Shown here: in pieces, positions 5,579 through 26,653 of the stretch
How the letters are laid out: every line of letters begins with the position of its first letter
How positions within the stretch are numbered: the first letter of the stretch is position 1
NCBI RefSeq assembly: GCF_002813755.1
Contig: NZ_CP018061.1
Location: 486,001 to 550,000, forward strand
From: Enterococcus mundtii
GTDB lineage: Bacteria; Bacillota; Bacilli; Lactobacillales; Enterococcaceae
DNA: 64,000 nucleotides
Direction of reading: 5' to 3'
The notes under the pieces: generated by a model
The model's input: the letters and a program-made list of their open reading frames with translations, nothing else
Told to the model about the DNA's origin: nothing
The model's database searches: none
Program-made: the position numbers and the translations under genes

Positions 5579-6347
5579 ATGATATTTGATTCTCATACTC
5601 ATTTGAACGCGGAACAATTCAATGATGACATTCCTGAAACGATCCAGCGTGCAGAAGAACTAGGTGTGACTAAAATGGCCGTCGTAGGCTTTGATACACC
5701 GACGATCGAAAAGTCCTTGATGCTTAGTCAAGATTACCCAAACATTTATAGCATCATTGGTTGGCATCCTACCGAAGCTGGTAGCTATACGAAAGAAATC
5801 GAAAATAAACTTCAAGAACAATTGACTTTACCAAAAGTGGTTGCTTTAGGGGAAATCGGACTGGATTATTATTGGATGGAAGATCCAAAAGAAGTCCAAG
5901 ATAAAATTTTTAGAAGACAGATCGCCATCGCAAAAGAGATGAACTTACCAATTAGTATCCATACGAGAGAAGCATTGGAAGATACTTATAAGGTTTTAAA
6001 AGAAGAGGACATTCGCGACATTGGTGGGATCATGCACAGCTTTAGTGGTGATTATGAATGGGCACAACGTTTCCTTGATTTAGGGATGCACATTTCTTTC
6101 AGTGGTGTCGTCACTTTCAAAAAGGCGTTAGATGTGCAAGAAGCAGCGACAAACGTTCCATTAGATCGTCTATTAGTGGAAACAGATGCTCCATATTTAG
6201 CGCCAATGCCCTATCGAGGAAAAAGAAATGAACCAGGGTATACTCGTTACACAGTCGAAAAGATCGCTGAACTTCGTCAACTGCCAATGGAAGAAGTAGC
6301 GGCACAAACATGGAAAAATGCCCATCGTTTATTTGGATTATCAGAGC

Positions 6348-6355
<8 letters not shown>
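5579..6355 (+). CDS. tatD: TatD family metal-dependent deoxyribonuclease
   Basis: Amidohydrolase-fold nuclease of 258 residues, expected to bind two metal ions and act on DNA 3' ends. Visible metal-site motifs are DSHTHLN at residues 4-10, GEIGLDYYW near 93, the mid-protein SIHTRE histidine, and [10 protein letters not shown] near 203. AAAGGAGA precedes the ATG. It is first in a tatD-rnmV-rsmA unit with overlapping genes, the same order as yabD-rnmV-ksgA in Bacillus. It has its own promoter region, because metG is not adjacent here. Confidence 0.95.
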
Positions 6356-7794
<1,439 letters not shown>

Positions 7795-7839
7795 AATGAG
7801 GAATAGAAGGCTGAAAAAGTCTTTTCGCTCTAAGCATGA

Positions 7840-7886
7840 AGGCATCACTTGAGAAAACCATTTTGGGTATTCTTCAAGTGGTGCCT
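7840..7886 (+). other. Hairpin downstream of rsmA
   Basis: Arms AGGCATCACTTGA and TCAAGTGGTGCCT (13 bp with one G-U) close a 21-base loop. No T-run follows, so it may stabilise the 3' end of the operon transcript rather than terminate it. Confidence 0.4.
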
Positions 7887-7966
7887 GACTATTTTAGGAC
7901 ATATGGTCCAAGATCAAATTATTCGATTTTAGAGAGGGTGGCATTTCAGATGTCCTGTTTCTCTTT

Positions 7967-7982
7967 ATGTGTCTTGACACAT
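7967..7982. promoter_or_regulatory. NiaR-type operator 1
   Basis: Perfect palindrome ATGTGTC-TT-GACACAT overlapping the -35 hexamer of niaX. It fits my memory of the NiaR (YrxA) niacin-repressor site. The same arms recur at 8015. Confidence 0.75.
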
Positions 7983-8002
7983 TAGAAAGTTAGCGGTACA
8001 AT
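7974..8002 (+). promoter_or_regulatory. Sigma-A promoter of niaX
   Basis: TTGACA (7974-7979), 17-bp spacer, TACAAT (7997-8002). It is bracketed by the two operators. Confidence 0.85.
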
Positions 8003-8014
8003 AGGTCAAAATAA

Positions 8015-8030
8015 ATGTGTCAAGACACAT
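8015..8030. promoter_or_regulatory. NiaR-type operator 2
   Basis: Perfect palindrome ATGTGTC-AA-GACACAT just downstream of the -10 box, where a bound repressor would block transcription. It has the same arms as operator 1, 48 bp away centre to centre. Confidence 0.75.
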
Positions 8031-8045
8031 CAAGGGAGTAAAAAA

Positions 8046-8672
8046 ATGAAAACAAATTCTGTAAGAAAATTGACAATTTCCGCTTTATTGATCGGGATGG
8101 GCGTTCTTATTCCGATGATCATGCCTAAGATCGTAATTCCGCCTGCTTCATTTACACTAGCTTCACATGTGCCATTATTTATCGCAATGTTTTTTTCACC
8201 CGGTGTAGCTGTTGCAGTGGCGCTAGGTACAACATTTGGTTTCTTCTTGACGACACCTGTGATTATTGCGCTTCGTGCATTGTCTCATTTGGTATTTGCT
8301 CTAATCGGTGCATGGTATTTACAAAAAAAACCAGGGATCGTCTTAAAAGACGGGCAATTCACATTAATGAACTGGCGTTTTCAAGGGTTTAACTTATTGA
8401 TCGGCGTGATCCACTCGATCATCGAAATGCTAGTGGTGAGTGTATTCTTCTTCATTGGGAATATGCCGGAAACATACTATGCAGAAGGCTACTTCTATAC
8501 CGTATTCATCTTGATGGGGATCGGTGGCTTGATCCATAGTTTGGTGGATTACAATATCGCTTACTTCATTGCCGGAACATTGAGTAAATTCTTTGATGTG
8601 CCAGTTTTCACTGCTGCCAAGAAACAGCAAAAGAAAGAGATCGTACAAGGAACGATTAAAAAAGTCGTTTAG
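8046..8672 (+). CDS. niaX: Niacin ECF transporter substrate-binding membrane protein
   Basis: A 208-residue hydrophobic protein with about six membrane helices, built like the S component of energy-coupling-factor vitamin transporters. The core ECF ATPases and the T component are encoded elsewhere. The family call rests on the N-terminal pattern VRKLTISALLIGMGVLIPMI and on the paired palindromes around its promoter, which match the niacin repressor NiaR. It should bring niacin into the cell for NAD synthesis. The start follows AAGGGAG. It is a single-gene unit, with terminator at 8700. A different vitamin remains possible if the operator assignment is wrong. Confidence 0.82.
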   Translation: MKTNSVRKLTISALLIGMGVLIPMIMPKIVIPPASFTLASHVPLFIAMFFSPGVAVAVALGTTFGFFLTTPVIIALRALSHLVFALIGAWYLQKKPGIVLKDGQFTLMNWRFQGFNLLIGVIHSIIEMLVVSVFFFIGNMPETYYAEGYFYTVFILMGIGGLIHSLVDYNIAYFIAGTLSKFFDVPVFTAAKKQQKKEIVQGTIKKVV

Positions 8673-8699
8673 CAATGCCACAGATAAAGACTGAAAAAT

Positions 8700-8748
8700 A
8701 ACCAAAAAAAGACCCAAGATCGAACGATCGATGGGTCTTTTTTTGGTT
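8700..8748. terminator. Bidirectional terminator between niaX and the sugar ABC ATPase gene
   Basis: Perfect arms AACCAAAAAAAGACCCA / TGGGTCTTTTTTTGGTT around a 15-base loop. T-runs are present on both strands for the convergent genes. Confidence 0.95.
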
Positions 8749-8765
8749 ATCAAGTTCTGTTTCGT

Positions 8766-9887
8766 TTATGGGATCGTGATGACATCTTCTGTATCTTTAT
8801 CAAAGAAATGGCCTTTGTTGATATTGAAGGCAAGGTCGATCATTTCTCCTGGTTTATGGAAGTCACGCGCGTCAACTTTTGAAATGAACTCAGTTGTTCC
8901 AGTGCGAGTATAAAGCATGGTTTCTGCACCAAGTAATTCAGATACAACGACTTCTGAATTGACAACAGTTTCTGGTGAGGCATCCAAGACAACTTGTTCA
9001 CTATGGATATCTTCTGGACGGATACCAAAGACAAGTTCTTTGCCTTCATAACCTTTTTCAACTAGCACTTTATTTTTACCTTCAGGGATTCTCAATTTTA
9101 GTCCATGACCATCTGAGATAACGCCTTGGCTTAATTTTACATTGAAAAAGTTCATGGCAGGTGAACCAATGAAACCAGCAACGAACATGTTGACTGGTGT
9201 GTCATAAACTTCTTTCGGTGAACCGATTTGTTGGATAAATCCATCTTTCATGATGACGATGCGGTCTGCCATCGTCATCGCTTCTGTTTGGTCATGGGTA
9301 ACGTAAATGGTTGTTGTTTCTAAGCGTTGATGCAACTTCGCGATTTCGGCACGCATGGCTACACGTAGTTTGGCATCCAAGTTTGACAATGGCTCATCCA
9401 TTAAGAAGACTTTCGCATCACGTACGATGGCACGACCTAAAGCGACACGCTGACGTTGACCTCCTGAAAGAGCAGCAGGTTTACGTTTTAAGTATTCAGT
9501 CAAACCAAGGATCTCCGCAGCATTTTCCACACGTTGTTGGATGTCTGCTTTATCGTATTTACGCAATTTCAAACCAAACGCCATATTGTCAAATACCGTC
9601 ATGTGAGGGTATAAGGCATAGTTTTGGAATACCATCGCGATATCACGGTCTTTAGGAGCAACATCGTTCATTACTTTACCGCCGATATTCAATTCTCCTT
9701 CGGAAATATCTTCAAGACCAGCGATCATTCGTAGAGTTGTTGATTTCCCACAACCGGAAGGACCAACGAATACGATAAATTCGCGATCTTTGATTGCCAA
9801 GTTAAAGTCAGTAACAGAATAGTTTTCTGCATTGTCATATTTCTTGTATACATTTTTCAGAGCCATTTCTACCATCGTACAAACCAC
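8766..9887 (-). CDS. ugpC: Sugar ABC transporter ATP-binding protein (MsmK/UgpC type)
   Basis: Cytoplasmic ATPase shared by carbohydrate ABC importers of the CUT1 class. Walker [10 protein letters not shown], signature [18 protein letters not shown], Walker [13 protein letters not shown] and the H-loop [10 protein letters not shown] are all intact. The C-terminal third is the TOBE-type regulatory domain ([11 protein letters not shown]). No permease or binding protein is nearby, as expected for a stand-alone shared ATPase. The frame opens at a GTG (9887); ATGs at 9875 and 9866 are also possible and no Shine-Dalgarno decides. The promoter carries a cre-like site, so catabolite control is likely. 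Confidence 0.93.
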
Positions 9888-9917
9888 GCTTTCTTTTTTC
9901 TTTTATTTGATGTGTTT

Positions 9918-9947
9918 AGTATAGTTGAAAGCGCTATCTATATTCAA
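9918..9947 (-). promoter_or_regulatory. Promoter with cre-like site for ugpC
   Basis: On the minus strand TTGAAT (9947-9942), 18-bp spacer, TATACT (9923-9918). The spacer contains TGAAAGCGCTATCT (9926-9939 on the plus strand), 13 of 14 matches to the cre consensus TGWAANCGNTNWCA, so CcpA would be expected to block this promoter. Confidence 0.7.
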
Positions 9948-10017
9948 TGTCACAATGAACAAGAATTCGTGGCATCTTTCGTCAATGTGTACAAAATAAT
10001 TGGAAAGTGCGTGGAAA

Positions 10018-10195
10018 GTGAGACAAAAATAAAATTCATTTTTGTTTCTATCCTTAAAAGCGAATAAACGGTGTTCCAGAAGTAACTCCTTCGGAAATAA
10101 GCCGAGAAACCCAAAAATTTGAAAAACAATTTTCGGGTTTCTCGGCTTATTTCTCGGAGCTGAACACTTCTGAAACAACCTCATCACCTACAAAA
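10018..10195 (+). repeat. Dispersed intergenic repeat, longest copy
   Basis: About 175 bp with two parts. The head carries GCGAATAAACGGTG followed by AGAAGTAACTCCTTCGG. The second part is a long imperfect palindrome, AAATAAGCCGAGAAACCC pairing with GGGTTTCTCGGCTTATTT across an A/T-rich loop. Related copies or fragments lie at 2280, 16127, 26700, 32714 and 42775. A 94-codon frame runs through it on the minus strand but has no coding character. Confidence 0.8.
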
Positions 10196-10392
10196 TAGAA
10201 TAAATGATGTTCATGAAGCAGATCCTTCAATAATGAGAGCAAACTCCAGCAATATGGCAATTTATTTTTTTGTTTTTACTGCTCGAGTTATCAAAGATTT
10301 ACCGTGTATTCACTATCTTAGAGCGTATAATACTTTGTAGATATTAAGAGATATAAAAAAGGAGGCAACCAAGAAAACAAAATTTGATTTTC
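10196..10392. other. Intergenic stretch before mazEF with orphan promoter elements
   Basis: Between the repeat and mazE I see a TATAAT (about 10326) and an excellent ribosome site AAAAGGAGG (about 10361) that no in-frame start follows at a usable distance. This may be the remains of a lost gene. Nothing else is evident. Confidence 0.35.
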
Positions 10393-10423
10393 ATGTTAAA
10401 TTAAGTTAAACTCAATTTAACAT
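10393..10423. promoter_or_regulatory. Palindromic operator-like site upstream of mazE
   Basis: A 31-bp near-perfect inverted repeat whose arms read ATGTTAAATTAAGTT and, on the other strand, ATGTTAAATTGAGTT. It sits 20 bases before the mazE start. Antitoxins of this family bind such palindromes to repress their own operon. Confidence 0.6.
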
Positions 10424-10442
10424 AAGCTGGGAGATGATAATA

Positions 10443-10676
10443 ATGGAAACGACTATTAGAAAGATTGGAAATTCTGTAGGAGCGATTTTTCCCAAAGATA
10501 TTTCTCCAGAAGTTGGAAAAATATATACGATTATTAAAATAGGTGAAACATATGTATTAAAGCCCAAAAAAGAAGATATTTTCAAGACTCCAGAGGCATG
10601 GGCAGGCTTTAGAGATTCAATCACCCAAGAAGATAAAGAGTGGGATGAGATGAACCTTGAGGGGGAGGAACTATAA
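10443..10676 (+). CDS. mazE: MazE-type antitoxin (AbrB/SpoVT fold)
   Basis: A 77-residue antitoxin expected to bind operator DNA through its N-terminal swapped-hairpin domain and to neutralise the adjacent toxin with its acidic tail. The N-terminus TTIRKIGNSVGAIFPKDI is the AbrB/MazE DNA-binding signature, and the tail (EDKEWDEMNLEGEEL) is strongly acidic. An ATG at 10434 is in frame, but TGGGAG is spaced for 10443. It ends directly before the toxin start, so translation is probably coupled. The 31-bp palindrome upstream fits autoregulation. Confidence 0.88.
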   Translation: METTIRKIGNSVGAIFPKDISPEVGKIYTIIKIGETYVLKPKKEDIFKTPEAWAGFRDSITQEDKEWDEMNLEGEEL

Positions 10677-11003
10677 ATGGATTATCCAAAGCAAAAAGAT
10701 ATTGTATGGCTGGATTTTGATCCAGCTAGAGGAAAGGAAATAAAGAAGCGAAGACCAGGTTTGGTAGTAAGTAAGAATAACTTCAACCAATACACTGGTT
10801 TTTGTTTGATTTGCCCAATCACATCAACTGAAAGAAAATTTGATACATATATTAAGATCAAAGAACCACAAATCATTTCTGGACAAGTTGTTACACATCA
10901 GTTGCGTTCAATTGACTACACCGCTAGAAACATAATAAAAATTGAACAATGTGATATTCTAACATGGGTGGATGTACTAGAAGTCCTTGATATGTTTGTA
11001 TAG
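10677..11003 (+). CDS. mazF: MazF/PemK-type mRNA interferase toxin
   Basis: A 108-residue ribonuclease toxin of the MazF/PemK fold, expected to cleave cellular mRNA at short motifs when the antitoxin is lost. Typical features are the N-terminal DIVWLDFDPARGKEIKKRRP segment with the conserved arginines, CPITST in the middle, and VVTHQLRSIDY near residue 73. It starts at the base after the mazE stop codon, behind GAGGGGGAGGAAC inside mazE. The cleavage motif cannot be predicted from sequence. The frame is intact, so the module is probably functional. Confidence 0.92.
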   Translation: MDYPKQKDIVWLDFDPARGKEIKKRRPGLVVSKNNFNQYTGFCLICPITSTERKFDTYIKIKEPQIISGQVVTHQLRSIDYTARNIIKIEQCDILTWVDVLEVLDMFV

Positions 11004-16287: not shown

Positions 16288-16929
16288 TTATTTTTGTAAG
16301 TAAGCTAAAACTGTTTCGCCTTTGACATCGACATCGATGACATTATAGAACCCATTTTTAGTATCAGCGACATCCCAAACAGCTAAGATTACATGATAGC
16401 CTAAACGGTCATTGGGAATGTTGATCGAATGTGTTGGATTAGTAGAAGCTAGTTGTCCATCATTGCCTACTTCACCAATGAATTCCAAGTCGTCTCTTGT
16501 CAACGCATCATTTTGATCCCAACCGGCTTTTGTCATGTAGTAATGCCATTTCGTTGTTGCATGATTGGCAGTGAATGTCCAAGTAAAATCATTTGCACCG
16601 GTTGTCAATTGTTGTTTTGTCCACAGTGAGGATGATTGTTGATCTAATAGGAAATCACCTACCGCACCATTTGCAGAAGCGATTTGTCCATCTTCAGGTC
16701 CAGCAGCTGGAAAGCCTTTTGGTGCTTCAAGGGATTGTGGCTCATTGATAACAGCTCCGTATTTTTTGAATGCAGCATTCCAGTTTGTATTTTTGTCAAG
16801 GCTCCCTTGGTATCCACGACTTGCTGGTTCAGAAACGTAACCATGAGCAGCAACATCGACAGAAGTAAGAGTGCTTGCCCCAATACCAGCTAAAATGAAT
16901 CCTAAACCAATTAATGTACTTTTTTTCAT
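16288..16929 (-). CDS. Secreted lytic polysaccharide monooxygenase, family AA10 (chitin-active type)
   Basis: Copper enzyme that oxidatively breaks crystalline chitin and helps chitinases. The precursor has 213 residues; a signal peptide ends at VDVAA, so the mature chain begins with H29 followed by GYVSEPASRGY. H29 is the amino-terminal copper ligand, and H123 in TANHATTKW is the likely second ligand of the histidine brace. It is a single catalytic domain without a carbohydrate-binding module, like EfCBM33A (EF0362) of E. faecalis. It is transcribed alone from a promoter with the TTGCAATA motif shared with the chitinase. TTGGAGG precedes the ATG. Confidence 0.95.
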   Translation of the reverse strand: MKKSTLIGLGFILAGIGASTLTSVDVAAHGYVSEPASRGYQGSLDKNTNWNAAFKKYGAVINEPQSLEAPKGFPAAGPEDGQIASANGAVGDFLLDQQSSSLWTKQQLTTGANDFTWTFTANHATTKWHYYMTKAGWDQNDALTRDDLEFIGEVGNDGQLASTNPTHSINIPNDRLGYHVILAVWDVADTKNGFYNVIDVDVKGETVLAYLQK

Positions 16930-16973: not shown

Positions 16974-17023
16974 ATCATAACTGACATATTATTAAGGTGA
17001 AAATTATGTATGTTATTGCAACA
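16974..17023 (-). promoter_or_regulatory. LPMO promoter with shared TTGCAATA element
   Basis: On the minus strand TGTTGCAATAACATACA (17023-17007) begins a promoter whose -10 TATGAT lies at 16979-16974. From the end of TTGCAA to the -10 box there are exactly 36 bp. There is no good -35 hexamer, as expected for an activator-dependent promoter. The same layout is seen at 18374-18423 and 26653-26604. Confidence 0.75.
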
Positions 17024-17080
17024 AAAAAAAATCGTTCAGCACGAAAATGTTTTTTTTTAGGAATAGTTCTATTTAGTCGT

Positions 17081-17217
17081 GTTTTTGATTATAGGGAAAT
17101 GGTCGCTGGTAAAAACAACTGCAACTGAAGAAATCGCTTATGCACGGGAATAGAACAAGAAACGAAAGAATTTATTGGAAGTGGTGGAGTAAATGTAGAG
17201 AACGAATCAGATAAATG
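17081..17217 (+). pseudogene. Possible remnant of a small protein gene
   Basis: Coding-like sequence reads VFLIIGKWSLVKTTATEEI and continues AYARE to a stop. With a one-base frameshift it continues as IEQETKEFIGSGGVNVENES and then DK before a stop. A strong ribosome site, AAGGAGG, follows at once (17218-17224) but introduces no gene. This looks like the decayed tail of one gene and the start signal of another. I do not recognise the family. The rest of 16980-17300 shows nothing else beyond the LPMO promoter and the rgg terminator. Confidence 0.35.
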
Positions 17218-17257
17218 AAGGAGGCAACATTACTCTTCGTTACAGGGAGATAGTTAA

Positions 17258-17304
17258 AAACCATGCATCTTCTCATTTGGGGATGAGGAGATACACGGTT
17301 TTTT
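17258..17304 (-). terminator. Terminator of rgg (bidirectional shape)
   Basis: Arms AACCATGCATCTTCTCAT and ATGAGGAGATACACGGTT, 18 bp with G-U and minor mismatches, loop TTGGGG. T-tract on both strands. Confidence 0.75.
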
Positions 17305-18244
17305 AGGCAGTATTCGCTTGGCGTTGTGAAGAGAGGCGATCGCACGTACTTTTAACAACAACTTTTGTGTGGTGCTCATTGTGCGGTAAATCACATATCT
17401 CTGCGCACAATTTTTCTTTTAGATTGATCATATAGTCTTTACTCGTAGAAAGATCTAACCATTCAAAAAATGCAATACCCGTTTCCACTTCTTTTAAAGC
17501 TGTTTTTTGTCCATCAGCTAATTTATCTAAAGCAGTAAATACTTTGTAATGTGCAAGGTCGAGTGTTTGCTTATGTGTCGTAGCGATTTTTTTTAATTGA
17601 GCTAGAAATAATTTGCGTAATGTGATTGATTCACGGTTAAAAGAAAGACGGACACCGTTCAAAATAAAATTAGAAAGAAGCTCAGAATAATAGGTATTAT
17701 CTATGTAAGCTTTCATCTTTGTGACACTGTTTTGGAACGAATAGGCAATATATTCATCATCAAAAATAAACAAACAATTTGAAAAAATAGTCAATTCAAA
17801 ATGGCCCCAAGTATCAATCTTTTCAAGATACTTCTTAATGACACTGATTTCTTCTTTCATTGATGCGGTAAAAGATGTGCTATACAGATAATTTGAAATC
17901 AATTTTCTTTGGGCATAGATCAAACGATAATAAATGTTTCCTGTTTTTTCAAATTCATTAAGCAATTCTTGCTCTTGAGCAGATGTAATGGTTTTTGAAG
18001 TAATCAAATAATTCGTTAATTTTTGTTTATTTGACAATGAATTACTATTCAATAAAAATTGATATTCTTCAAGTGTGATATTCATCCGATCAAGATAATT
18101 TACTAATAGTTCAAAACCAATTTTTGTTCCGCGTGATTCGAAAGCTGCTAATGTTCCTCTTTGGGAGATACCTACAGTTAATTGTTCTTGCGTCAATCCA
18201 CGATCTTTTCTTAATTTTCGAATTAGAGCAGCATGTTCTGTCAT
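17303..18244 (-). CDS. Rgg/GadR/MutR family transcriptional regulator
   Basis: Cytoplasmic DNA-binding regulator of 313 residues. Residues 1-65 form a HTH of the XRE type (LIRKLRKDRGLTQEQL, then GTLAAFESRGTKIGFELLVN), the hallmark start of Rgg proteins. The rest is helical TPR-like repeats that in this family bind short peptide pheromones. The frame extends to 18277, but CTGGAGG is spaced for ATG 18244. It sits between the LPMO gene and the divergent chitinase gene, both of which carry the same upstream element. I infer that it activates them; direct evidence is lacking. Its own promoter does not show the element. Confidence 0.88.
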   Translation of the reverse strand: MTEHAALIRKLRKDRGLTQEQLTVGISQRGTLAAFESRGTKIGFELLVNYLDRMNITLEEYQFLLNSNSLSNKQKLTNYLITSKTITSAQEQELLNEFEKTGNIYYRLIYAQRKLISNYLYSTSFTASMKEEISVIKKYLEKIDTWGHFELTIFSNCLFIFDDEYIAYSFQNSVTKMKAYIDNTYYSELLSNFILNGVRLSFNRESITLRKLFLAQLKKIATTHKQTLDLAHYKVFTALDKLADGQKTALKEVETGIAFFEWLDLSTSKDYMINLKEKLCAEICDLPHNEHHTKVVVKSTCDRLSSQRQANTA

Positions 18245-18373
18245 GTTCATTTCCTCCAGAAGCTGTTTTTTGTACATGGCTATAATAGCATAATGTAGTT
18301 ATGTGGATGTTATGTTTTCATATATGCGCCATTTTGCTAAAAAAGTGCGATTTTTTTTGTTTGAAAATTATTT

Positions 18374-18423
18374 TGTTGCAATACCAGACAAAAAAAATTT
18401 TGAAGAATAAGATATGTTTTAAT
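18374..18423 (+). promoter_or_regulatory. Chitinase promoter with shared TTGCAATA element
   Basis: TGTTGCAATACCAGACA (18374-18390); 36 bp after the TTGCAA core comes TTTAAT (18418-18423) as -10. The flank before the element (GAAAATTATTT) closely matches that of the mini-ORF promoter near 26653 (GGAAATTATAA). Confidence 0.75.
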
Positions 18424-18455
18424 CTGGTCTGTAATACAAATTTAGGAGGGAAAAA

Positions 18456-20192
18456 ATGAATAAAAAAAGTTTATTATTCTCAGTTGGTCTTTTAGGTTGT
18501 TTGATTGGAGGCGGAACAGATGTGTTTGCAGCAGACGCAGCAGATACGATGCCAGATATCTCAAATCGCCAAGTTTCAGTAGGTTATTATCATAATTGGG
18601 TGCCTGAACAAGGTGCTGGTTACCAAGGGGGCCGTCCGGCAGATACTGATTTGGCAAAAGTAAATCCTTTTTATAATGTGATTGCTGTGTCATTCATGAA
18701 AGGGGAAGGTATCCCAACATTCAAACCTTACAATATGTCTGATACTGAATTTAGACAAAAAGTAGCAACTTTGAATGCTGAAGATCGTGTGGTACTCATT
18801 TCACTTGGGGGTGCAGACTCACATATTGAATTACATAAAGGAGAAGAACAAGCCTTTGCAGATGAAATCATCCGTTTGGTTGAAGTTTATGGATTTGATG
18901 GCTTAGATATTGATTTAGAACAAACCGCAGTAGATGCAGGCGACAATAAAACAGTGATCCCAGATGCGTTGAAAATCGTCCGTGCACATTTTGAGAAAGA
19001 GCAAAAACATTTTATTATCTCCATGGCGCCAGAGTTTCCGTACTTAAGAACACAAGGTAAATATGTGCCATACATTACTGCTTTAGAACAAGAATATGAT
19101 TTTATTGCACCACAGTTATACAACCAAGCAGGTGACGGTATCAGTGTTGGAACTGAATGGATCGCTCAAAACAATGACAGCAAAAAATTTGAATTCTTAT
19201 ATGGGATTTCAAAAGCTTTCAATGAAGGAAGCGGTGGTTTTATCCAAATTCCAGCGAATCGTTTAGCTTTAGGTATTCCAGCAAACATTGATGCAGCAGC
19301 AAATGGTTTCGTAAAAGAGCCATCGAAAGTCTATGACGTATTTGAACAAATGGAAAAAGATCAAACACCATTGAAAGGTTTGATGACTTGGAGCATCAAC
19401 TGGGATGAAGGAAGAAACTCTGCTGGAGTAGAGTACAATGAATCATTTGCGAAGTCTTATCAGGATTTATTCCAAGAAAAAACACCTGATACAGAAAAAC
19501 CATCACAACCAACCAATCTAGCAGGAACAGCAACACATTCAACTGTCGCACTATCTTGGACAAATTCAACAGATGATCGTGGTGTAGCAGGTTATTACAT
19601 TTATCGTGATGGCGAACAAATTGGTAGAGCAACAAACAATGCTTATACAGACACAAAATTGACTGCCAGCACAGAATACACTTATACAGTGAAAGCATTC
19701 GATGCAGCTGGTAACGTTTCAGAAGAAAGTAAAGCATTAGTGATTTCTACATTAGAAGAGCCACCAGCTGACTTAGAAGCTCCATCAGTACCATTGAACA
19801 TTGCGGTTTCATCAATTAGTGACAAGAGTGTCTCTTTATCATGGACACAATCAACAGACAACGTGGGTGTAGTAGGTTACTATGTTTACCGTGACGGTGA
19901 GCAAGTAGGAGAAACAGCAACAAATACATTCAGTGACGCAGGATTAACAGCTAACACAGAGTATTCTTATACAGTGAAAGCATTTGACGAAGCGGGCAAC
20001 ATTTCAGAAGAAAGCAAAGCATTAGTTGTGACAACGGCGGATGCACCAGCAGTAGAAGCATGGGATGCAGATACAATTTATGATCTAGGTGATATCGTGA
20101 CACACAAAGGCAACACATATCGTGCAAAATGGTGGACACGAGGCAATGAGCCTGGAACTGAACAATGGGGACCTTGGGAATTGATTGGCTAA
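18456..20192 (+). CDS. Secreted chitinase, GH18 with two FnIII domains and a CBM5/12 chitin-binding domain
   Basis: Extracellular endo-acting chitin hydrolase. A signal peptide (to about VFAADA, residue 27) precedes a GH18 barrel (about 38-335) with the catalytic motif DGLDIDLE at 148-155, E155 being the acid. Two fibronectin type III domains follow (about 349-432 and 438-525), very alike even at DNA level. A C-terminal CBM5/12 module (about 531-578) is rich in tryptophans (WDADTIYDLGDIV, KWWTRGNEPG). AGGAGGG precedes the ATG. It is 578 residues, larger than single-domain enterococcal GH18 enzymes. It should work with the LPMO across the rgg gene, and possibly also on host glycans. Confidence 0.95.
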   Translation: MNKKSLLFSVGLLGCLIGGGTDVFAADAADTMPDISNRQVSVGYYHNWVPEQGAGYQGGRPADTDLAKVNPFYNVIAVSFMKGEGIPTFKPYNMSDTEFRQKVATLNAEDRVVLISLGGADSHIELHKGEEQAFADEIIRLVEVYGFDGLDIDLEQTAVDAGDNKTVIPDALKIVRAHFEKEQKHFIISMAPEFPYLRTQGKYVPYITALEQEYDFIAPQLYNQAGDGISVGTEWIAQNNDSKKFEFLYGISKAFNEGSGGFIQIPANRLALGIPANIDAAANGFVKEPSKVYDVFEQMEKDQTPLKGLMTWSINWDEGRNSAGVEYNESFAKSYQDLFQEKTPDTEKPSQPTNLAGTATHSTVALSWTNSTDDRGVAGYYIYRDGEQIGRATNNAYTDTKLTASTEYTYTVKAFDAAGNVSEESKALVISTLEEPPADLEAPSVPLNIAVSSISDKSVSLSWTQSTDNVGVVGYYVYRDGEQVGETATNTFSDAGLTANTEYSYTVKAFDEAGNISEESKALVVTTADAPAVEAWDADTIYDLGDIVTHKGNTYRAKWWTRGNEPGTEQWGPWELIG

Positions 20193-20229
20193 ACAATCCA
20201 TACCCGTCTTTATTAATGAAGCAATCGTT

Positions 20230-20320
20230 GATGCTGAATCAATCAACGAATAAGTGATTTGCTCAGTATTGTTAAGATTTTCGTGCATGTCTAACGAGAA
20301 TCTTAGCAATTGGGCAAACG
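20230..20320 (+). other. Strong secondary structure downstream of the chitinase gene
   Basis: A short hairpin (CGTTGAT / ATCAACG, 20228-20250) is followed by a long imperfect stem: TTGCTCAGTATTGTTAAGAT pairs with AATCTTAGCAATTGGGCAA around 20256-20318. There is no T-tract directly after. It may protect the 3' end of the chitinase transcript. Confidence 0.4.
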
Positions 20321-20406
20321 CATGATAAAAATTCAATTATTTTTTATGTTTGTATAACAGAACATGGAAAAAACATATATTATAACAACTATTATAAAAA
20401 TTCCAA

Positions 20407-20437
20407 GTCCTCTTTTAAGAGGCCTTTTTTATTTTAT
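20407..20437 (+). terminator. Terminator downstream of the chitinase gene
   Basis: CCTCT-TTTA-AGAGG hairpin followed by CCTTTTTTATTTT. Confidence 0.6.
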
Positions 20438-20590
20438 CAAGTAACATGAATGAATTGAAATCATAACGTACAGATAAAATGTTTATTAAATTTTTACACT
20501 GAGAAGGGTAAATCTATGGATTTTTTTCCATAGTTTATCAAGCATAATATAGACATAGATTGGTGATTACTTGGTAAAGGAGGTTGATAT

Positions 20591-20653
20591 ATGAGAAATA
20601 AATATAAGGTAAATGGTTGTTTTCAAGCTGAGCTTTTGATGGAAAAGCCATGA
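20591..20653 (+). CDS. Small leader ORF with a perfect ribosome site
   Basis: A 20-codon frame (MRNKYKVNGCFQAELLMEKP) follows AAAGGAGGT with 6-base spacing, one of the best ribosome sites in the window. A second short frame (20671-20748, MKGRMITLILSVGSNYLVVQ and onward) ends just before the start of the WxL protein gene. Complementary GATCCACC and GGTGGGATC near 20652 and 20706 could form a stem between them. The function is unknown: a leader peptide coupled to the downstream gene is possible, and so is the decayed start of a longer gene. The leader upstream (20438-20580) has a TAATAT box and a small hairpin. Confidence 0.35.
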   Translation: MRNKYKVNGCFQAELLMEKP

Positions 20654-20751
20654 TCCACCTGAGCAGGGAACCATGAAAGGAAGAATGATCACCCTAATAC
20701 TATCGGTGGGATCAAATTATCTAGTTGTACAAAAAAGGGATGTTTTTTAGG

Positions 20752-22800
20752 ATGATAAAGATGAAGCTGGCAAAAAAAATAAAGGTAGTTATGTGTATAG
20801 TAAGTATCGTTTTCTTTTTTTATAAAGTAGCCATCAGTCTACCGTATCATGCGTCTGCTGATTCGGCAACTGAGAGTAGTGAAAATGCGCCGAGTGAAAG
20901 TACTACGACAAAGGAAATGGGTTCTTCAGAAGAAATAAGTGAACCATCCAATAGTACTGTGCAAAGTGATTTCCAATCCGTTTTAGCTGTCCCTACAGCA
21001 GCTTCAGGCATAGCTAGTGTGGATAACTTCAATGATTTTCGTACCGCTTTATTGGACCCCACTATTACAGACATTTATTTAACTGGAGATATCAAGTTAA
21101 CGGCATCTTTTAATATCAATTCGCCAAAAAATATTTATGGCAATAACCACACGATTGATATTAATCTTCAACTGGTTGGCGTTGCATTAGCGTATACGAC
21201 TTGCTCTATTTCTGATGTCACACTAATCAATCAACATCCATATTCGTTTTTCTGGTCCGAATTCTCAGGAGTCACGATCAACTATACAAATGTCACATCT
21301 TCTGGACAACAATTCATTTATCTGCCTTATGGGACAGCGAATCTGTATGAGAATATTACAGCCTCATCAGATACGCAAGAAGTGTGTGAAGTAAAAGAAT
21401 TAAATATACGAAATGGAGCAAATGTAGCATTCAATAATACGAGTAACAGCTATCCAGTAGTAGGTAATAATAGCAGCACTGTCTTGAACATAGAAGATCA
21501 TACCACTTTTAGCGCACAATCAAATAATCCAACAGCAACTATTGCAATCGGTCAATCTCTGTCAATCGCAGCAACCAGCAATTTTTCGATTGCTAATTCC
21601 AAAGGCTGTGCTTTAGGTTCATATTATAGCAGTGCACCATTCACGATCGCTTCAAATAGTGGGATTGGTACTTGGAAGCTAAATGGCACAGACCCACTTC
21701 CCGATATCGGCTATACCGGACCAATTACGACAAGTTTTAATTTAACTTCGATTGATATTGCTCAAAATACCTTGAATGTGACGTCCAATAATTCCATGTT
21801 TCCAAAATATTTCCAGTCTAAAAATGTAAGAAAAATAGCTAGTGGTCCATTCACGAGTAAAGCACAAGTAATTACCAAGGATATCGATCTATTATTGGGT
21901 GAAGTTTGGATACCACCATATAACTTTGTGAGTGCAACAAATGCGCTAGGACAGCCACAAACAATCAATGATGTCACGATTCAAGGCGAAGCGGATGGAG
22001 AGAAAATAGGGACCTATCAAATTACTTTTACTTGTGATGATGCGGAGTCTGTGGCGACAGTCAATGTATTTGATATTCAGCTTCATTCCTTGCCTACGAT
22101 CTATGCCAAAGATACATGGAATGAATATGATGGATTAGATTGTATCATTGAATCAGATAGTAGCAGCAATTCATCTCTTTCGTTTTTCGAGACAAACGTC
22201 AGTGTCACTGCACAAAAAATCGAAGGAGCGAATATGATTGATATTGATCCACAAAAATTGACAGAAGAAGAAGGACAGTATGTTCTCACCTATACGTATA
22301 AGCATAAATCGAAAAGTATGAATGTGACGGTTGAGGAGAGCCTTTTCAATGATCAATCAATCTATCCGTCCATACTTGATTTTGGCCATGTCCCAATCCA
22401 ATATACAACCAATCAATTGATTGCTACAAATGCCACAGGGAAAATCGATATCACTGACAAACGAAGTAACAATGGAGACGGCTATAAAGTAAAAGTCACT
22501 CAGGACCATGTCTTGACTGGAATAAGTAGTGGCTTTCAATTAACAGGGTCAATCATCCAATTTGAAACAGGGACAGCAACTAATAGTAGTGGGGGAGCAG
22601 TGATAAGTACTGGAAGTAATCAAACAATTGATATTCCTGTTGGGCAAGAAAAAGAAGTATTTCGAGTGGATAAAGGGAATAGTCGGGGACAGATCGTTTT
22701 GCCACTCACCGAGTTTAAGTTGGAGTTGCCAAGTGACAGTCCGAAAATAGCTGATTCTTATCAGGCAAAAATCACTTGGACACTTTCAGAAACACCCTAG
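20752..22800 (+). CDS. Large WxL-domain surface protein
   Basis: Secreted protein of about 680 residues, expected to attach non-covalently to peptidoglycan through its C-terminal WxL domain. A signal segment (VVMCIVSIVFFFYKVAIS) is followed by a serine/threonine-rich linker. Then comes a beta-helix-like region (IYGNNHTIDINLQ, DVTLINQHPYSFFW; pectate-lyase-like look), Ig-like segments, and the WxL domain from about 545. The distal motif is ITWTLSETP; the proximal W is replaced by Y (GYKVKVTQ). The start is uncertain: TTG 20725, ATG 20740 and ATG 20761 are in frame, and none has an ideal ribosome site. It is first of three genes of a WxL locus. Confidence 0.85.
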   Translation: MIKMKLAKKIKVVMCIVSIVFFFYKVAISLPYHASADSATESSENAPSESTTTKEMGSSEEISEPSNSTVQSDFQSVLAVPTAASGIASVDNFNDFRTALLDPTITDIYLTGDIKLTASFNINSPKNIYGNNHTIDINLQLVGVALAYTTCSISDVTLINQHPYSFFWSEFSGVTINYTNVTSSGQQFIYLPYGTANLYENITASSDTQEVCEVKELNIRNGANVAFNNTSNSYPVVGNNSSTVLNIEDHTTFSAQSNNPTATIAIGQSLSIAATSNFSIANSKGCALGSYYSSAPFTIASNSGIGTWKLNGTDPLPDIGYTGPITTSFNLTSIDIAQNTLNVTSNNSMFPKYFQSKNVRKIASGPFTSKAQVITKDIDLLLGEVWIPPYNFVSATNALGQPQTINDVTIQGEADGEKIGTYQITFTCDDAESVATVNVFDIQLHSLPTIYAKDTWNEYDGLDCIIESDSSSNSSLSFFETNVSVTAQKIEGANMIDIDPQKLTEEEGQYVLTYTYKHKSKSMNVTVEESLFNDQSIYPSILDFGHVPIQYTTNQLIATNATGKIDITDKRSNNGDGYKVKVTQDHVLTGISSGFQLTGSIIQFETGTATNSSGGAVISTGSNQTIDIPVGQEKEVFRVDKGNSRGQIVLPLTEFKLELPSDSPKIADSYQAKITWTLSETP

Positions 22801-23062
22801 CCATTAGTCTCTAACGGACGATGGATAATGATAGCATGAGGGTGTTCAATCTGAGGAGTCAGAAAACGAGAGATCAAAAAAAGAATCAGGATTAAGTTGT
22901 GCGCTCATTCATAGAACGTTGTGCCAATCGTTGATAGAGACAACTCACAATGGATCATTTCTGAAAGCGAAAAGGAACGACGTGCAGACTGATCACAATT
23001 GAAGTGGCAACAAAGTCGGCTAGCTATAAAATATTTTATACAATGAAAAGGAGCATAAGATA

Positions 23063-23692
23063 ATGGTAATCACAAAAAAATATGTCATGGCAGGTATGAG
23101 TATCTTAGTAGGAGCAAGTTTAGGTATAACATCGGTGAGTGCCGATACAACAACTGATGGCACAGTGACTTTACAAGCACCAACTGGTGGAAATGGAGAA
23201 GATTTGAACCTAGCAACCAACAAGTTACCAACCAATCTGAATTTTGGTACTGCTAATATCAAATATGATCAATCCATCGAACAAATCGCTACAGTAGATG
23301 GTAATCAGGCATCTAACCCAACAACTACGGATATCCAAGTCACAGATAATCGTGGTGATCTAACAAAAGGTTGGAAACTAAAAGTAAAACAAATTGCCCA
23401 ATTTACGTCCTCAGTCAATCAAGCTGAGTTAGCAGGGGCAGAATTATCGATCAATACAGGAAATGTGACAAACATTGGTGGTGATCTACCCACAGGCGGT
23501 GTAATCAACACCCAAGACTATGTGATTACTCCAGATGTGGATGTGGAAGTATTCAAAGCGAGTCCAGGAGAGGGATTAGGAATTTCAACATTGCCAATCA
23601 ATCAATACAAATTAAGTATTCCTGCTGCAGCAAAAAAAGAAGCGGATACCTATCATGCGCAATTGACTTGGACGTTTTCTGATACATTGTAA
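23063..23692 (+). CDS. Small WxL-domain surface protein
   Basis: A 209-residue secreted protein that is essentially a single WxL domain. The signal peptide ends at SVSA (residue 27). The two conserved motifs are GWKLKVKQ in the middle and LTWTFSDTL at the C-terminus (WxF form). Such proteins bind peptidoglycan and assemble with DUF916/DUF3324 partners at the cell surface. AAAAGGAG precedes the ATG. The 262-base gap from the large WxL gene holds no terminator or ORF that I can support. It is followed 30 bases on by its likely partner gene. Confidence 0.93.
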   Translation: MVITKKYVMAGMSILVGASLGITSVSADTTTDGTVTLQAPTGGNGEDLNLATNKLPTNLNFGTANIKYDQSIEQIATVDGNQASNPTTTDIQVTDNRGDLTKGWKLKVKQIAQFTSSVNQAELAGAELSINTGNVTNIGGDLPTGGVINTQDYVITPDVDVEVFKASPGEGLGISTLPINQYKLSIPAAAKKEADTYHAQLTWTFSDTL

Positions 23693-23722
23693 GAACTGCC
23701 CTTGACAGAAAGGAACTGCCCA

Positions 23723-24772
23723 GTGAAAATCAAAAAAAATATAGCCATGTTTTTATTTTTACTTGTTTTGTCTCATCTATGTGACGTACCTGTGTTTAGT
23801 GATGAAAACTCAGCTTCTCAGAATATTCCATTTTTGGTGTCCACGCAATTGCCGGACAATCAAATAAATAAACAGGTCTCCTATTTTGATTTACAAATGG
23901 AACCAAAACAAGAACAGACGTTGCATCTTAAAATCGAAAATATCTCGGATCAGACGATCATGCTAGACACAACTTTATATCAAGGAAATACGAACAGTAT
24001 CGGGGTCATTGAGTATGATAAATCGGTCAAGGGTTTAGCAAATAACGCGCAAGTCAATATAGAAGATCTAGTAAAAATATCAGAAAATAAAATCAAAATT
24101 TCTCCAAAGCAAACGCATGAATTACAAGTGAAAATCAAAATGCCTGAAAAGAATCTATCTGGGATTACCATTGGAGCGATCCGGGTAGTTCAGAATAATG
24201 AAGCAAACAAAGAAGGCAATATTCAAAATAATTTTGCGAGAGAAATCGGTTTAGTTTTGCAATCAAGTGATCCGGAGCAAATTCCATCAACATTAAAACT
24301 TTTAGATGCGCAAGCAGAACAAGTGAATACGCGAAATGTTTTTACAGAGAAAATCCAAAATCCTAAACCCAAATTAATCCGGCTAACCAACATCAAAGCA
24401 ATCATTACGAAAGAAGATGATCAAGAAGTTATGTATCAAGCAAACCAGCCGGAAGGCTCGATTGCTCCAAATACGGTATTGAACTATAGGATACCACTAG
24501 ACGGTAAAGCATTATTACCGGGAGTGTATGTTGCGACATTTGAAGCGGATGAAGGGGAACATCACTGGAAGTTAACAAGGAAATTCACAGTAAAAAACAA
24601 CATAAGCAAAAAATTAAACCAAACAGATATATTGATAAAAAGTCAGCCTAGTTTTTTTGCAAAGTACAAATGGATGATGATAACTGGGTGTGTCTTATTA
24701 GTGATTATTCTAGGTCTGTGTATTTATATAGGTAAAATCAAAAGGAAGTTGGTTGAACAAGAGAAGAGCTAA
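23723..24772 (+). CDS. DUF916/DUF3324 WxL-partner membrane protein
   Basis: Surface protein of 350 residues that in this family anchors WxL proteins; the DUF916 part binds peptidoglycan and the DUF3324 part is host- or partner-binding. A signal peptide (MFLFLLVLSHLCDVPVFS) leads into DUF916 (about 35-150, PFLVSTQLPDNQINKQVSYF, LHLKIENISD) and DUF3324 (about 165-300). A transmembrane helix (WMMITGCVLLVIILGLCIYI) and a short basic cytoplasmic tail follow. GTG 23723 has AAAGGAACT before it; the frame opens at TTG 23702. It completes the minimal WxL cell-wall complex with the two preceding genes. Confidence 0.92.
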   Translation: MKIKKNIAMFLFLLVLSHLCDVPVFSDENSASQNIPFLVSTQLPDNQINKQVSYFDLQMEPKQEQTLHLKIENISDQTIMLDTTLYQGNTNSIGVIEYDKSVKGLANNAQVNIEDLVKISENKIKISPKQTHELQVKIKMPEKNLSGITIGAIRVVQNNEANKEGNIQNNFAREIGLVLQSSDPEQIPSTLKLLDAQAEQVNTRNVFTEKIQNPKPKLIRLTNIKAIITKEDDQEVMYQANQPEGSIAPNTVLNYRIPLDGKALLPGVYVATFEADEGEHHWKLTRKFTVKNNISKKLNQTDILIKSQPSFFAKYKWMMITGCVLLVIILGLCIYIGKIKRKLVEQEKS

Positions 24773-24792
24773 GCTAGTTTATAATAAGTAAA

Positions 24793-24836
24793 AGGGGGAG
24801 AACAGAAGTGATGCCACGTTCTTCCTCTTTTTTTAC
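24793..24836 (+). terminator. Terminator of the WxL cluster
   Basis: GGGGGAGAAC pairs with GTTCTTCCTC (with G-U pairs) across a 14-base loop, followed by TTTTTTT. Confidence 0.7.
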
Positions 24837-24935
24837 AAAAAAATAAATTTTTTTAAATTTTATGAAACTTTTACTTCAACTTGATTTTTTAATGATATTA
24901 TCCATTTAATTTAACAGGTGGGTGGGGGAGTAATA

Positions 24936-26414
24936 GTGTTTAGAAAATATTTAGAGAAAGAAATTTTTCGAAAAGTTACTATTATTAATCTATTATGGGA
25001 AAAATCAAGTTTGACTTCGCTGGAGATGTCTCAACAATTGAATGTTTCTGTTTCAACGATAAAAGGAGACATAAAAGCAATCAATCTACAATTCGATGAG
25101 ACTGATCCGTTGATTGAATCAAATCCAACAGGGTATTTGATCAGAAATAAGTATAAAAGAAATAAACGAACGTATATGAAGAAAGTCTATCAATATTCAC
25201 CATTTATCAAAGCGTGTATGTATTTCTTTAAAACCGATTTTTCGAATCCCCTAGGTTTTGCCAAGCAAGAATATATCTCTTCCTCCAAAGCATATCAACT
25301 AAAAAAAGAGGTGATGTCCTATGTCGCCTCTTATGGCATCGACCTCAATGATAAGAAGGTAGAAGATGAGTATCGCTTACGGTTTTTAATTGCACTTTTT
25401 CAAATGAAGAGCGGTATTCAAGTAGTTAAGGTGTCAAAAACGAGTCAGTACAAAATAAATCATTTGTTTCAACAAATTGAAAAAGAACAAAAATGTTTAT
25501 TTTCAGATTTCTCAAAAGAATACGCACAGATTTTACTTCAACTGATGTTTGATCGAAAAATGAAGTTGAAAGACAATCTAGATATAAAAAAGTTAGAGAT
25601 GTATAAATGCACACCTATTTATCATCAGATAGAAGATCGTCTTGTCGCCTTTTTGAAACAAATGTTTTTAAGCCCAGATGAACGAAACTTAAACTATTGT
25701 ACGATCGTATTCAATTTTTTAAACCAAAATTTTTATGAAATAAATGCACATGAAAAGAATTATCAATGCTATATCGCTTTTACTAAAGAATTCCCAGAGA
25801 TCAAGTATGAGTATCTGATCGACAAGATGGAACGTAATATTCCTAACTTTTCTAATAATCAACGAACCATCGAAGTACTAACTTTGATGTTTTTGCGGAA
25901 ATGTCATTTTAATTTTCAACAGCTGATTCCTGAAGAACATGTTGTGGAAGGGACAGATATGGCAGAGATTCCTCAAGCTTTCTTTGAGAAAATCAAGCAG
26001 ATCTTTATGGACTGGAATGATTTTTCAGGATTGAACCTAGCATTTTCAGATGATCATTTTCGGTATTTAGCAACAAAAATTTATTTTTTGACTTATCGGA
26101 GTAAAAATGAAAAAAGAGTCTTTTTACTGACAGGTGTCTGTACGGACTTCTTATGGGCACAGGAAATGTTAGAACAAGAATTTGGAAACACCCTGGACAT
26201 TCAACAATTCAATCCGGAAACCATTCCCAGCAACTATAATAAACGTGATGTGATTTTATATAATATCAGCCATGAGAAACTATCCCAAATTGATTGCTTC
26301 AAAATGAGGGTATCCTTTAATTTTGATTTTTGTGAATTGTTTAACATAAGGAAAGAATTATTTGGTTACGATATCGCTATGTATAAAAAAATCATCGAGA
26401 AAGAATTACGATAA
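24936..26414 (+). CDS. Mga-like transcriptional regulator
   Basis: A 492-residue DNA-binding regulator of the Mga/AtxA type. The N-terminus (FRKVTIINLLWEKSSLTSLE, then MSQQLNVSVSTIKGDIKAIN) is the first winged-helix domain. The long middle is PRD-like, and the C-terminal part (KRVFLLTGVCTDFLWAQEML) resembles a PTS EIIB fold. The best start is GTG 24936 behind GGGGGAG. It lies directly downstream of the WxL locus in the same orientation but with its own leader, so it is a candidate regulator of that locus. Whether PTS phosphorylation acts on it cannot be told from sequence. It converges on the mini-ORF unit at 26540. Confidence 0.85.
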   Translation: MFRKYLEKEIFRKVTIINLLWEKSSLTSLEMSQQLNVSVSTIKGDIKAINLQFDETDPLIESNPTGYLIRNKYKRNKRTYMKKVYQYSPFIKACMYFFKTDFSNPLGFAKQEYISSSKAYQLKKEVMSYVASYGIDLNDKKVEDEYRLRFLIALFQMKSGIQVVKVSKTSQYKINHLFQQIEKEQKCLFSDFSKEYAQILLQLMFDRKMKLKDNLDIKKLEMYKCTPIYHQIEDRLVAFLKQMFLSPDERNLNYCTIVFNFLNQNFYEINAHEKNYQCYIAFTKEFPEIKYEYLIDKMERNIPNFSNNQRTIEVLTLMFLRKCHFNFQQLIPEEHVVEGTDMAEIPQAFFEKIKQIFMDWNDFSGLNLAFSDDHFRYLATKIYFLTYRSKNEKRVFLLTGVCTDFLWAQEMLEQEFGNTLDIQQFNPETIPSNYNKRDVILYNISHEKLSQIDCFKMRVSFNFDFCELFNIRKELFGYDIAMYKKIIEKELR

Positions 26415-26459
26415 ATAGAAGAGATGGGCAGAGGTAGCTGATTTTTTAGAAAAATAAAT

Positions 26460-26503
26460 AAAAAAACGAAAATCGCTTGTTGAACGACGATTTTCGTTTT
26501 TTT
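26460..26503. terminator. Bidirectional terminator between the Mga-like gene and the mini-ORF unit
   Basis: AAAAAACGAAAATCG pairs with CGATTTTCGTTTTTT around a loop of about 12 bases, with T-tracts on both strands. On the minus strand it ends the transcript of the 8-codon ORF 37 bases after its stop. Confidence 0.9.
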
Positions 26504-26539
26504 ATTCTTGAGGATTTTGTTTATTCTTGAAACTTGCAC

Positions 26540-26566
26540 TTACATTGGTGGAGTAACTGACCACAT
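26540..26566 (-). CDS. Eight-codon ORF, candidate leaderless signalling peptide
   Basis: Minus-strand ORF encoding MWSVTPPM, followed by TAA. It is preceded by AAAGGAGGTG (26582-26573), fully complementary to the 3' end of the 16S rRNA in this window, with a 6-base spacer to ATG. Upstream is a promoter of the same design as the LPMO and chitinase promoters, and a terminator lies 37 bases after the stop. No other ORF lies in this unit of about 140 nt. Size and lack of a signal peptide recall SIP (MWLLLLFL), sensed by the Rgg protein RopB in S. pyogenes, but the sequence itself is not similar beyond MW. It may alternatively be a small regulatory RNA. Confidence 0.5.
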   Translation of the reverse strand: MWSVTPPM

Positions 26567-26603
26567 AAGATGCACCTCCTTTAGTTCGACTGTTGATAAA
26601 TAG

Positions 26604-26653
26604 ACTATATCATTGGAATAGACCAAAAAAACATCTTGTATGGTATTGCAACA
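26604..26653 (-). promoter_or_regulatory. Promoter of the mini-ORF with shared TTGCAATA element
   Basis: On the minus strand TGTTGCAATACCATACA begins at 26653. The -10 TATAGT lies at 26609-26604, exactly 36 bp after the TTGCAA core. There is no consensus -35. It is the third member of the motif set with the LPMO and chitinase promoters. Confidence 0.75.

Follow-up and report, generated by a model that had tools for sequence, protein, structure and literature searches.

The element considered here is a 17-mer, TGTTGCAATAMCAKACA, which stands before three transcription units in a 64,000-nucleotide stretch of the Enterococcus mundtii genome (contig NZ_CP018061.1, positions 486,001 to 550,000; this whole stretch is called the window below). 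Two of the units encode chitin-active enzymes, a lytic polysaccharide monooxygenase (LPMO) and a chitinase, whose genes lie on either side of a gene for an Rgg-family regulator. The third is a mini open reading frame (ORF) of eight codons at some distance from them. The features of the locus are as follows, in window coordinates.

16288..16929, minus strand: LPMO_10/AA10 chitin-type LPMO (Pfam PF03067, E 1.8e-43), proposed regulon target
16974..16979, minus strand: -10 box TATGAT of the LPMO promoter, 36 bp after TTGCAA
17007..17023, minus strand: putative operator TGTTGCAATAACATACA of the LPMO promoter, exact 17-mer match
17303..18244, minus strand: Rgg-family regulator, proposed receptor (Rgg_C PF21259, E 8.5e-18; NCBIfam TIGR01716)
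18374..18390, plus strand: putative operator TGTTGCAATACCAGACA of the chitinase promoter, exact 17-mer match
18418..18423, plus strand: -10 box TTTAAT of the chitinase promoter, 36 bp after TTGCAA
18456..20192, plus strand: secreted GH18 chitinase with fn3 and CBM5/12 domains (ORF and Pfam), proposed regulon target
26456..26507, minus strand: hairpin resembling a terminator, followed by a U tract, past the peptide gene (-22.3 kcal/mol in a fold of the 90 nt past the stop)
26540..26566, minus strand: peptide gene of 8 codons, MWSVTPPM, proposed leaderless pheromone (ORF behind element, -10 box and ribosome-binding site)
26575..26580, minus strand: ribosome-binding site within AAAGGAGGTG, ahead of MWSVTPPM
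26604..26609, minus strand: -10 box TATAGT of the peptide promoter, 36 bp after TTGCAA
26637..26653, minus strand: putative operator TGTTGCAATACCATACA of the peptide promoter, exact 17-mer match

Shared Element and Promoter Geometry

An earlier note on this DNA had reported three copies of the 17-mer and no other in the window, and an exact scan finds the same. When up to three mismatches are allowed, the window holds five matches in all, two of them at three mismatches; shuffled sequences gave a mean of 0.83, and none of 100 shuffles reached five. The core TTGCAATA alone is unremarkable (8 matches against 4.4 expected), so the significance rests on the 17-mer plus its spacing. Throughout the host genome (G000, 3.5 Mb, two contigs), the three window sites are the only matches to TGTTGCAATAMCAKACA at up to one mismatch, and the reversed pattern used as a control gives none. 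The scatter over many unrelated promoters that the note had named as telling against its proposal was thus not seen in this genome at up to one mismatch. The region contains no tandem repeats, and a search of Rfam at the gathering threshold gave no match.

The distance of 36 bp between TTGCAA and the -10 box, likewise claimed in the note, is exact at all three promoters. If transcription starts about 7 nt past the -10 box, the element would lie at approximately -56 to -40. The best -35 hexamers, compared with TTGACA at spacers of 15-19 bp, reach 1/6 at the chitinase and 2/6 at the mini-ORF; the claim that a good -35 is missing holds for these two and is weaker for the LPMO (4/6). An alleged agreement in the 11 bp preceding the chitinase and mini-ORF copies proved to be identity at 8 of 11 positions that is not kept in sister genomes, and it was rejected as part of the site. 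A rival consensus promoter, TTGATT-16-TATAAT (10/12), lies directly upstream of the mini-ORF element; matches of this kind are near chance in the region (49 found versus 42.3 ± 5.4 in shuffles). As read from the DNA, the three promoters share one putative operator in a fixed geometry, with poor -35 regions.

Conservation of the Element Within the Genus

The comparison set comprised 105 genomes of the family, 15 from the genus (the host included) and 90 others. A clear Rgg ortholog, 60-100% identical, is encoded in 14 of the 15 genus genomes; the fifteenth, G004, has just a distant Rgg match (1.7e-17). Sites were collected in the rgg neighbourhoods of the 14 genomes at up to three mismatches to TGTTGYAATANCRTACA and kept if they precede an LPMO gene, a chitinase gene, or a mini-ORF with W-x-[VI]-[ST], the -10 box not being a selection criterion. 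This yielded 43 sites: 17 before LPMO genes (14/14 genomes), 13 before chitinase genes (13/14), and 13 before peptide genes (11/14). The chitinase site of G006 was assigned via its chitinase start, and the chitinase of G009 has a four-mismatch form with TTTACT at the standard offset, as read by eye. A -10 box occurs at the window offset in 38 of the 43 sites, against 14 of 43 at the next-best offset. The best -35 hexamer (16-18 bp spacers) reaches 4/6 in nine sites, where shuffled spacers predict 6.8, and the -35 is therefore not selected.

The note had proposed to check whether motif and rgg co-occur in enterococcal genomes and had counted a lack of conservation in sister genomes against its idea. 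The sites are present in all 14 genomes with the rgg ortholog, and at up to one mismatch none exists in the genome without it. This co-occurrence supports the note's suggestion of a small regulon whose common operator keeps a constant spacing to the -10 box and is most probably bound by the neighbouring Rgg. Exact matches to a wider pattern, TGTTGYAATANCRKACA, are distributed similarly, with 11 of the 14 rgg-carrying genomes, 0/1 for the rgg-less one, and one of the 90 other family genomes (G035); the exact match of G005 sits elsewhere in its genome. At up to one mismatch, some TGTTGYAATANCRKACA match is found in 64 of the 105 genomes, and single-mismatch matches are common throughout. Outside the genus they are probably mostly due to chance, because the reversed control also yields many there. 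A three-mismatch scan of three genomes gave mostly chance matches (nearly as many with the control), and a scan of viral contigs for the element plus a -10 box gave six.

At up to one mismatch, TGTTGYAATANCRKACA adds a single site in the host genome, ahead of another chitinase-LPMO operon at about 789-792 kb of contig C1. The element-like TGTTGCAATACCGAACA is found there ~170 bp upstream (L115 4181-4197, G000:C1:789180) and is followed by TGTAATCGATTACG, which resembles a catabolite-responsive element (cre-like). G007, G008, and G013 have such a site at the corresponding position; in G005, G009, and G011 it is degenerate, and in G002 and G006 none was seen. The -10 box of the operon is off the standard offset, and its place as a fourth target of the regulon is tentative. 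In G001, a one-mismatch element (C12:222039, L044) precedes a secreted-looking ORF of 199 aa, and TACTAT, which weakly resembles a -10 box, stands at the offset; the ORF is a possible extra target in one species without a recognisable peptide. A peptide with the Trp motif is absent behind this site and behind the other motif sites with a -10-like box near the offset, namely, those at 985577 and 1355383 in G005, C44:196221 in G009, C13:20955 in G013, and C4:76326 in G014.

The Peptide Gene

The mini-ORF had been regarded as an isolated mini-transcript. It does share the element and the geometry of the other two promoters, as the note had seen; what was missed is that it encodes a conserved peptide, and with this the hidden regulon becomes a probable peptide-pheromone circuit. 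The ORF reads ATG TGG TCA GTT ACT CCA CCA ATG TAA. Thirteen copies of a mini-ORF with a ribosome-binding site behind the element were found in 11 of the 14 genomes, and all hold W-x-[VI]-[TS]. MWSVTPPM is identical in the host and in its E. mundtii relatives G007 and G011. Close counterparts are MWSVTPPF (G005) and MWQVTPPVL (G014, Enterococcus sp. 10A9_DIV0425), while G003 (L074 12016-12667) has MWDITPPM, MWDVSPPM, and MWNVTPPK in tandem, each with its own element and -10 box. Forms of 11 aa occur in G002 (E. durans, MDWSVTLPVVL), G008 (MGEEWSISPPM), and G013 (E. villorum, MGEEWSVSPPV), and N-extended forms of 18-20 aa in G006 (MFPLPLPLGGWEVSPNNP, with an alternative in-frame start two codons upstream) and G009 (MLPLPLSGGTWDVTPPSPMK), both with GG ahead of the Trp. 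The length thus ranges from 8 to 20 aa and the flanks diverge around a constant core: the Trp is present in 13/13 copies and a Pro follows five residues later in 12/13 (Asn in G006), the residue directly after the Trp being the most variable of the core.

The pattern ATGTGGNNNRTNWCNCCNCC, which detects just the forms beginning with Met-Trp, gave eight matches in the genus, every one of them this peptide gene. The other 90 family genomes gave three (two long ORFs and a 17-codon ORF without a matching ribosome-binding site), and the reversed control two in the 105 genomes. Both the conserved peptide ORF and the co-occurrence of element and rgg are evident at the level of sequence. The hairpin after the gene is strong in several genomes and weak in G003 and G008; a consensus terminator scan did not list the one in the window.

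The order LPMO(-) rgg(-) chitinase(+) peptide(-) gpsA(+) is found in 7 of the 14 genomes (G002, G005, G006, G008, G009, G011, G013), where slightly more than 2 kb separates the peptide from rgg. A WxL/WxLIP/Mga cluster lies between chitinase and peptide in G000 and G007, which puts the peptide about 8 kb from rgg (~8.3 kb in the window). This cluster, at about 20700-26414 of the window, is absent between chitinase and peptide in G011 (E. mundtii Pe161). The peptide of G014 is ~12 kb from rgg and adjoins gpsA; that of G003 is next to the chitinase gene, on the opposite strand, and gpsA is absent from this place. In G001, G010, and G012, which form one clade of the Rgg tree, a different cluster lies between the chitinase gene and gpsA. 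The rgg-less G004 has a three-mismatch element upstream of gpsA (L180, element at 2640) with no -10 box at the offset. The ORF at the expected place of the peptide reads MLLPALLLGG followed by a stop, has a weak upstream AGAGGA, and looks like the N-extension of the G006 and G009 peptides minus the Trp core. Element and ORF may be a relic of the peptide gene.

The Rgg Regulator

The regulator consists of an N-terminal helix-turn-helix and an Rgg C-terminal domain similar to tetratricopeptide repeats (TPR), an arrangement that fits Rgg/RRNPPA regulators. Its start is placed at a conserved Met at 18244, with a longer start possible at 18277, and it is 94-95% identical to the Rggs of E. mundtii CVM N55263 and Pe161. 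A structure model (mean predicted local distance difference test, pLDDT, 79) has the predicted fold of peptide-pheromone receptors. The closest solved structures by sequence are NrpR (64 bits), Lmo0325 (51), RopB (44, C-terminal domain only), Rgg2 (32), and Rgg3 (26). Comparison of the modelled fold (VIA-align) places Lmo0325, RopB, NrpR, Rgg2, and Rgg3 all within ~2 Z units. The equivalents of RopB N192 and F155 are invariant in the 14 Rggs. At the N152 position, the 11 genomes with the peptide have Asn, and the three of the clade without it have Arg.

A further 35 Rgg loci, 26-44% identical to the window Rgg, were examined, and at 13 of them a divergent W-x-[VIL] peptide with a ribosome-binding site stands beside the Rgg gene; controls gave 0/308 after removal of known copies. 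An Rgg tree with paralogs has many long branches and serves as loose context only. On the 147-kb second contig of the host there are two equal-scoring copies of a related rgg (L020; C2:13687 and 137719), the examined one with the divergent small ORF MKDTERDYWLIEAQ beside it. Another related Rgg, with the peptide MYSLDEFSWDVVPPRLF (L134 about 5862-10870), adjoins ORFs that look by eye like radical-SAM (S-adenosylmethionine) proteins and ABC transporters, neighbours that suggest a peptide-controlled cluster for a ribosomally synthesised and post-translationally modified peptide (RiPP).

Interpretation and Alternative Explanations

The locus is probably governed by an Rgg-peptide autoinduction circuit of the RopB/SIP kind that controls the LPMO and the chitinase. 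The Rgg at 17303-18244 would have the three promoters as its core regulon. Transcription from the promoter at 26653 would give the 8-aa peptide MWSVTPPM, or a trimmed WSVTPPM, without a secretion signal. By analogy with RopB-SIP, we infer that the peptide leaves the cell, re-enters, and binds the TPR pocket, and that the peptide-bound Rgg then occupies TGTTGYAATANCRTACA at about -56 to -40 and activates rather than represses, recruiting RNA polymerase where a good -35 is missing. As the element also stands before the peptide's own gene, positive feedback (autoinduction) would result. Raised expression of LPMO and chitinase would then place secreted chitin degradation under peptide control and gate it by population density.

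Several observations weigh against this circuit. SIP is hydrophobic, whereas the peptides here are rich in Pro, and RopB R188, which anchors the peptide C-terminus, is replaced by Asn or His, with I195 and Q199 differing as well. The structural match cannot separate receptors of leaderless communication peptides (LCPs) from those of streptococcal SHPs. Although Rggs bind as dimers, inspection of the operator by eye shows no further clear dyad than TGT...ACA. The pairing of element and peptide is known from one genus, and 22 of the 35 other Rgg loci lack a W-x-[VIL] peptide. Codon evidence for translation is modest, because nonsynonymous differences exceed synonymous ones (100 versus 66, pairwise, in the six core codons of 12 copies). 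Finally, G001, G010, and G012 keep exact LPMO and chitinase elements and have no recognisable peptide. None turned up in the ~20 kb surrounding rgg, next to gpsA, or past the other motif-like sites examined, with no whole-genome search made for a diverged form; in these genomes Rgg may work without a peptide or use another.

One alternative is an Rgg that controls the three promoters with an input other than this peptide; it might sense pH or a signal linked to chitin, or bind constitutively, and the mini-ORF would be a co-controlled translated leader or small RNA. We consider this unlikely, as the peptide core W-x-[VI]-[TS] persists while length and flanks change, similar peptides adjoin some other Rggs, and the N152 position is altered in the very clade that lacks the peptide, albeit as one event. 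Still less probable is a RiPP-like modified product or bacteriocin that is merely co-regulated. The Trp- and Pro-rich core and the GG before the Trp in G006 and G009 do resemble processed peptides, but 7 of the 14 genomes have just the chitinase gene and gpsA as neighbours, with no obvious modification gene, and eight codons leave no room for a leader. Binding of the element by another regulator is hardly credible. The Mga-like protein (24918-26414), named in the earlier note as the alternative activator, adjoins the peptide gene in the window, but a match at E <= 1e-20 is present in only 2 of the 15 genus genomes (G000 and G007), against elements in 14 that track the rgg ortholog and are missing at up to one mismatch from G004. 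In the other nine peptide-carrying genomes, its cluster does not lie between chitinase and peptide. A repeat or chance similarity without regulatory role, to which the near-chance frequency of TTGCAATA in the window might point, can be dismissed, since 14 genomes have between them 43 sites, at a fixed -10 offset, before genes of three types, and the region has no tandem repeats.

The autoinduction circuit may be part of a larger history, for and against which we see about equal reason. Peptides with Trp-x-(Val/Ile)-x-Pro would constitute a pheromone family across the Rggs of Enterococcaceae, one branch of which took over chitin degradation in the E. mundtii/durans/villorum group; the peptide gene would have come to lie far from that of its receptor, and the signal would alternate in evolution between the leaderless 8-mer and an N-extended PLPL..GG form. 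In that case the signal would need no dedicated leader, and the breakdown of insoluble chitin would be a quorum-gated public good in enterococci. The circuit itself would connect the use of chitin by enterococci, through LPMO plus chitinase, with quorum sensing by peptides. It predicts the exact eight-letter signal, its receptor, the DNA site, and the targets.

Comparison With Known Systems

LCPs read by Rggs are already known. The accessible part of PMC10518010 describes an E. malodoratus LCP shown experimentally and predicted LCPs of E. casseliflavus and E. durans, which, like the peptide proposed here, are paired with Rggs of enterococci. LCPs described as having charged, polar, and proline residues include that of E. 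casseliflavus, and that of E. durans is an exception in length. The survey covers 450 bp around receptor genes, which leaves the chitin-locus peptides outside its range. As far as that part of the paper goes, an overlap of the chitin-locus peptide with the LCPs listed cannot be fully excluded, and the 17-aa peptide MYLYAVGDNIWELVPSL beside another E. durans Rgg may be the E. durans LCP listed there. The strings of the chitin-locus peptides were not found in one open-access library, and none of the matches listed from it is a peptide-Rgg circuit tied to chitin enzymes.

A close relative for comparison is RopB-SIP of S. pyogenes (PMC6565748, PMC10518010, both as far as accessible). SIP is Leu-rich and its gene is adjacent to rgg, whereas the peptide here is Pro-rich (WSVTPP) and 2-12 kb apart; R188 is present in RopB and not kept here; the reported RopB half-sites GTTACGTNT are unlike the operator described here; and RopB targets speB instead of chitin enzymes. 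MWSVTPPM has the ultrasmall ORF (mostly 8-10 aa), strong ribosome-binding site, and lack of a secretion signal typical of RopB-type LCPs. The 11-aa (G002, G008, G013) and 18-20 aa (G006, G009) forms depart from that size, and the peptide genes are not within 450 bp of the receptor gene. NrpR of S. salivarius K12 (PDB 9lth) is described as controlling a non-ribosomal peptide synthetase cluster and has an adjacent LCP, in contrast to the proposed chitin targets and distant peptide here. The SHPs of streptococci are made as longer precursors that carry signals for export and cleavage, and their genes usually lie next to rgg; the 8-aa window ORF has no such length or hydrophobic export signal. In Listeria, an Rgg is required for chitinase activity (PMC5666140); Lmo0325 of L. 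monocytogenes (PDB 4ryk) has lmo0326 and lmo0327 as neighbours, and the accessible part of that paper describes no peptide or operator.

The export route of leaderless peptides is called uncharacterised in the accessible part of PMC12700828, and leaderless and N-extended sister versions of one signal offer a natural comparison for this question. Searches that begin from the operator can find pheromone genes that receptor-adjacent searches miss. The chitin circuit proposed here departs from the usual LCP systems by its non-adjacency and extends them by a small regulon defined through its operator and by N-extended peptides in sister species.

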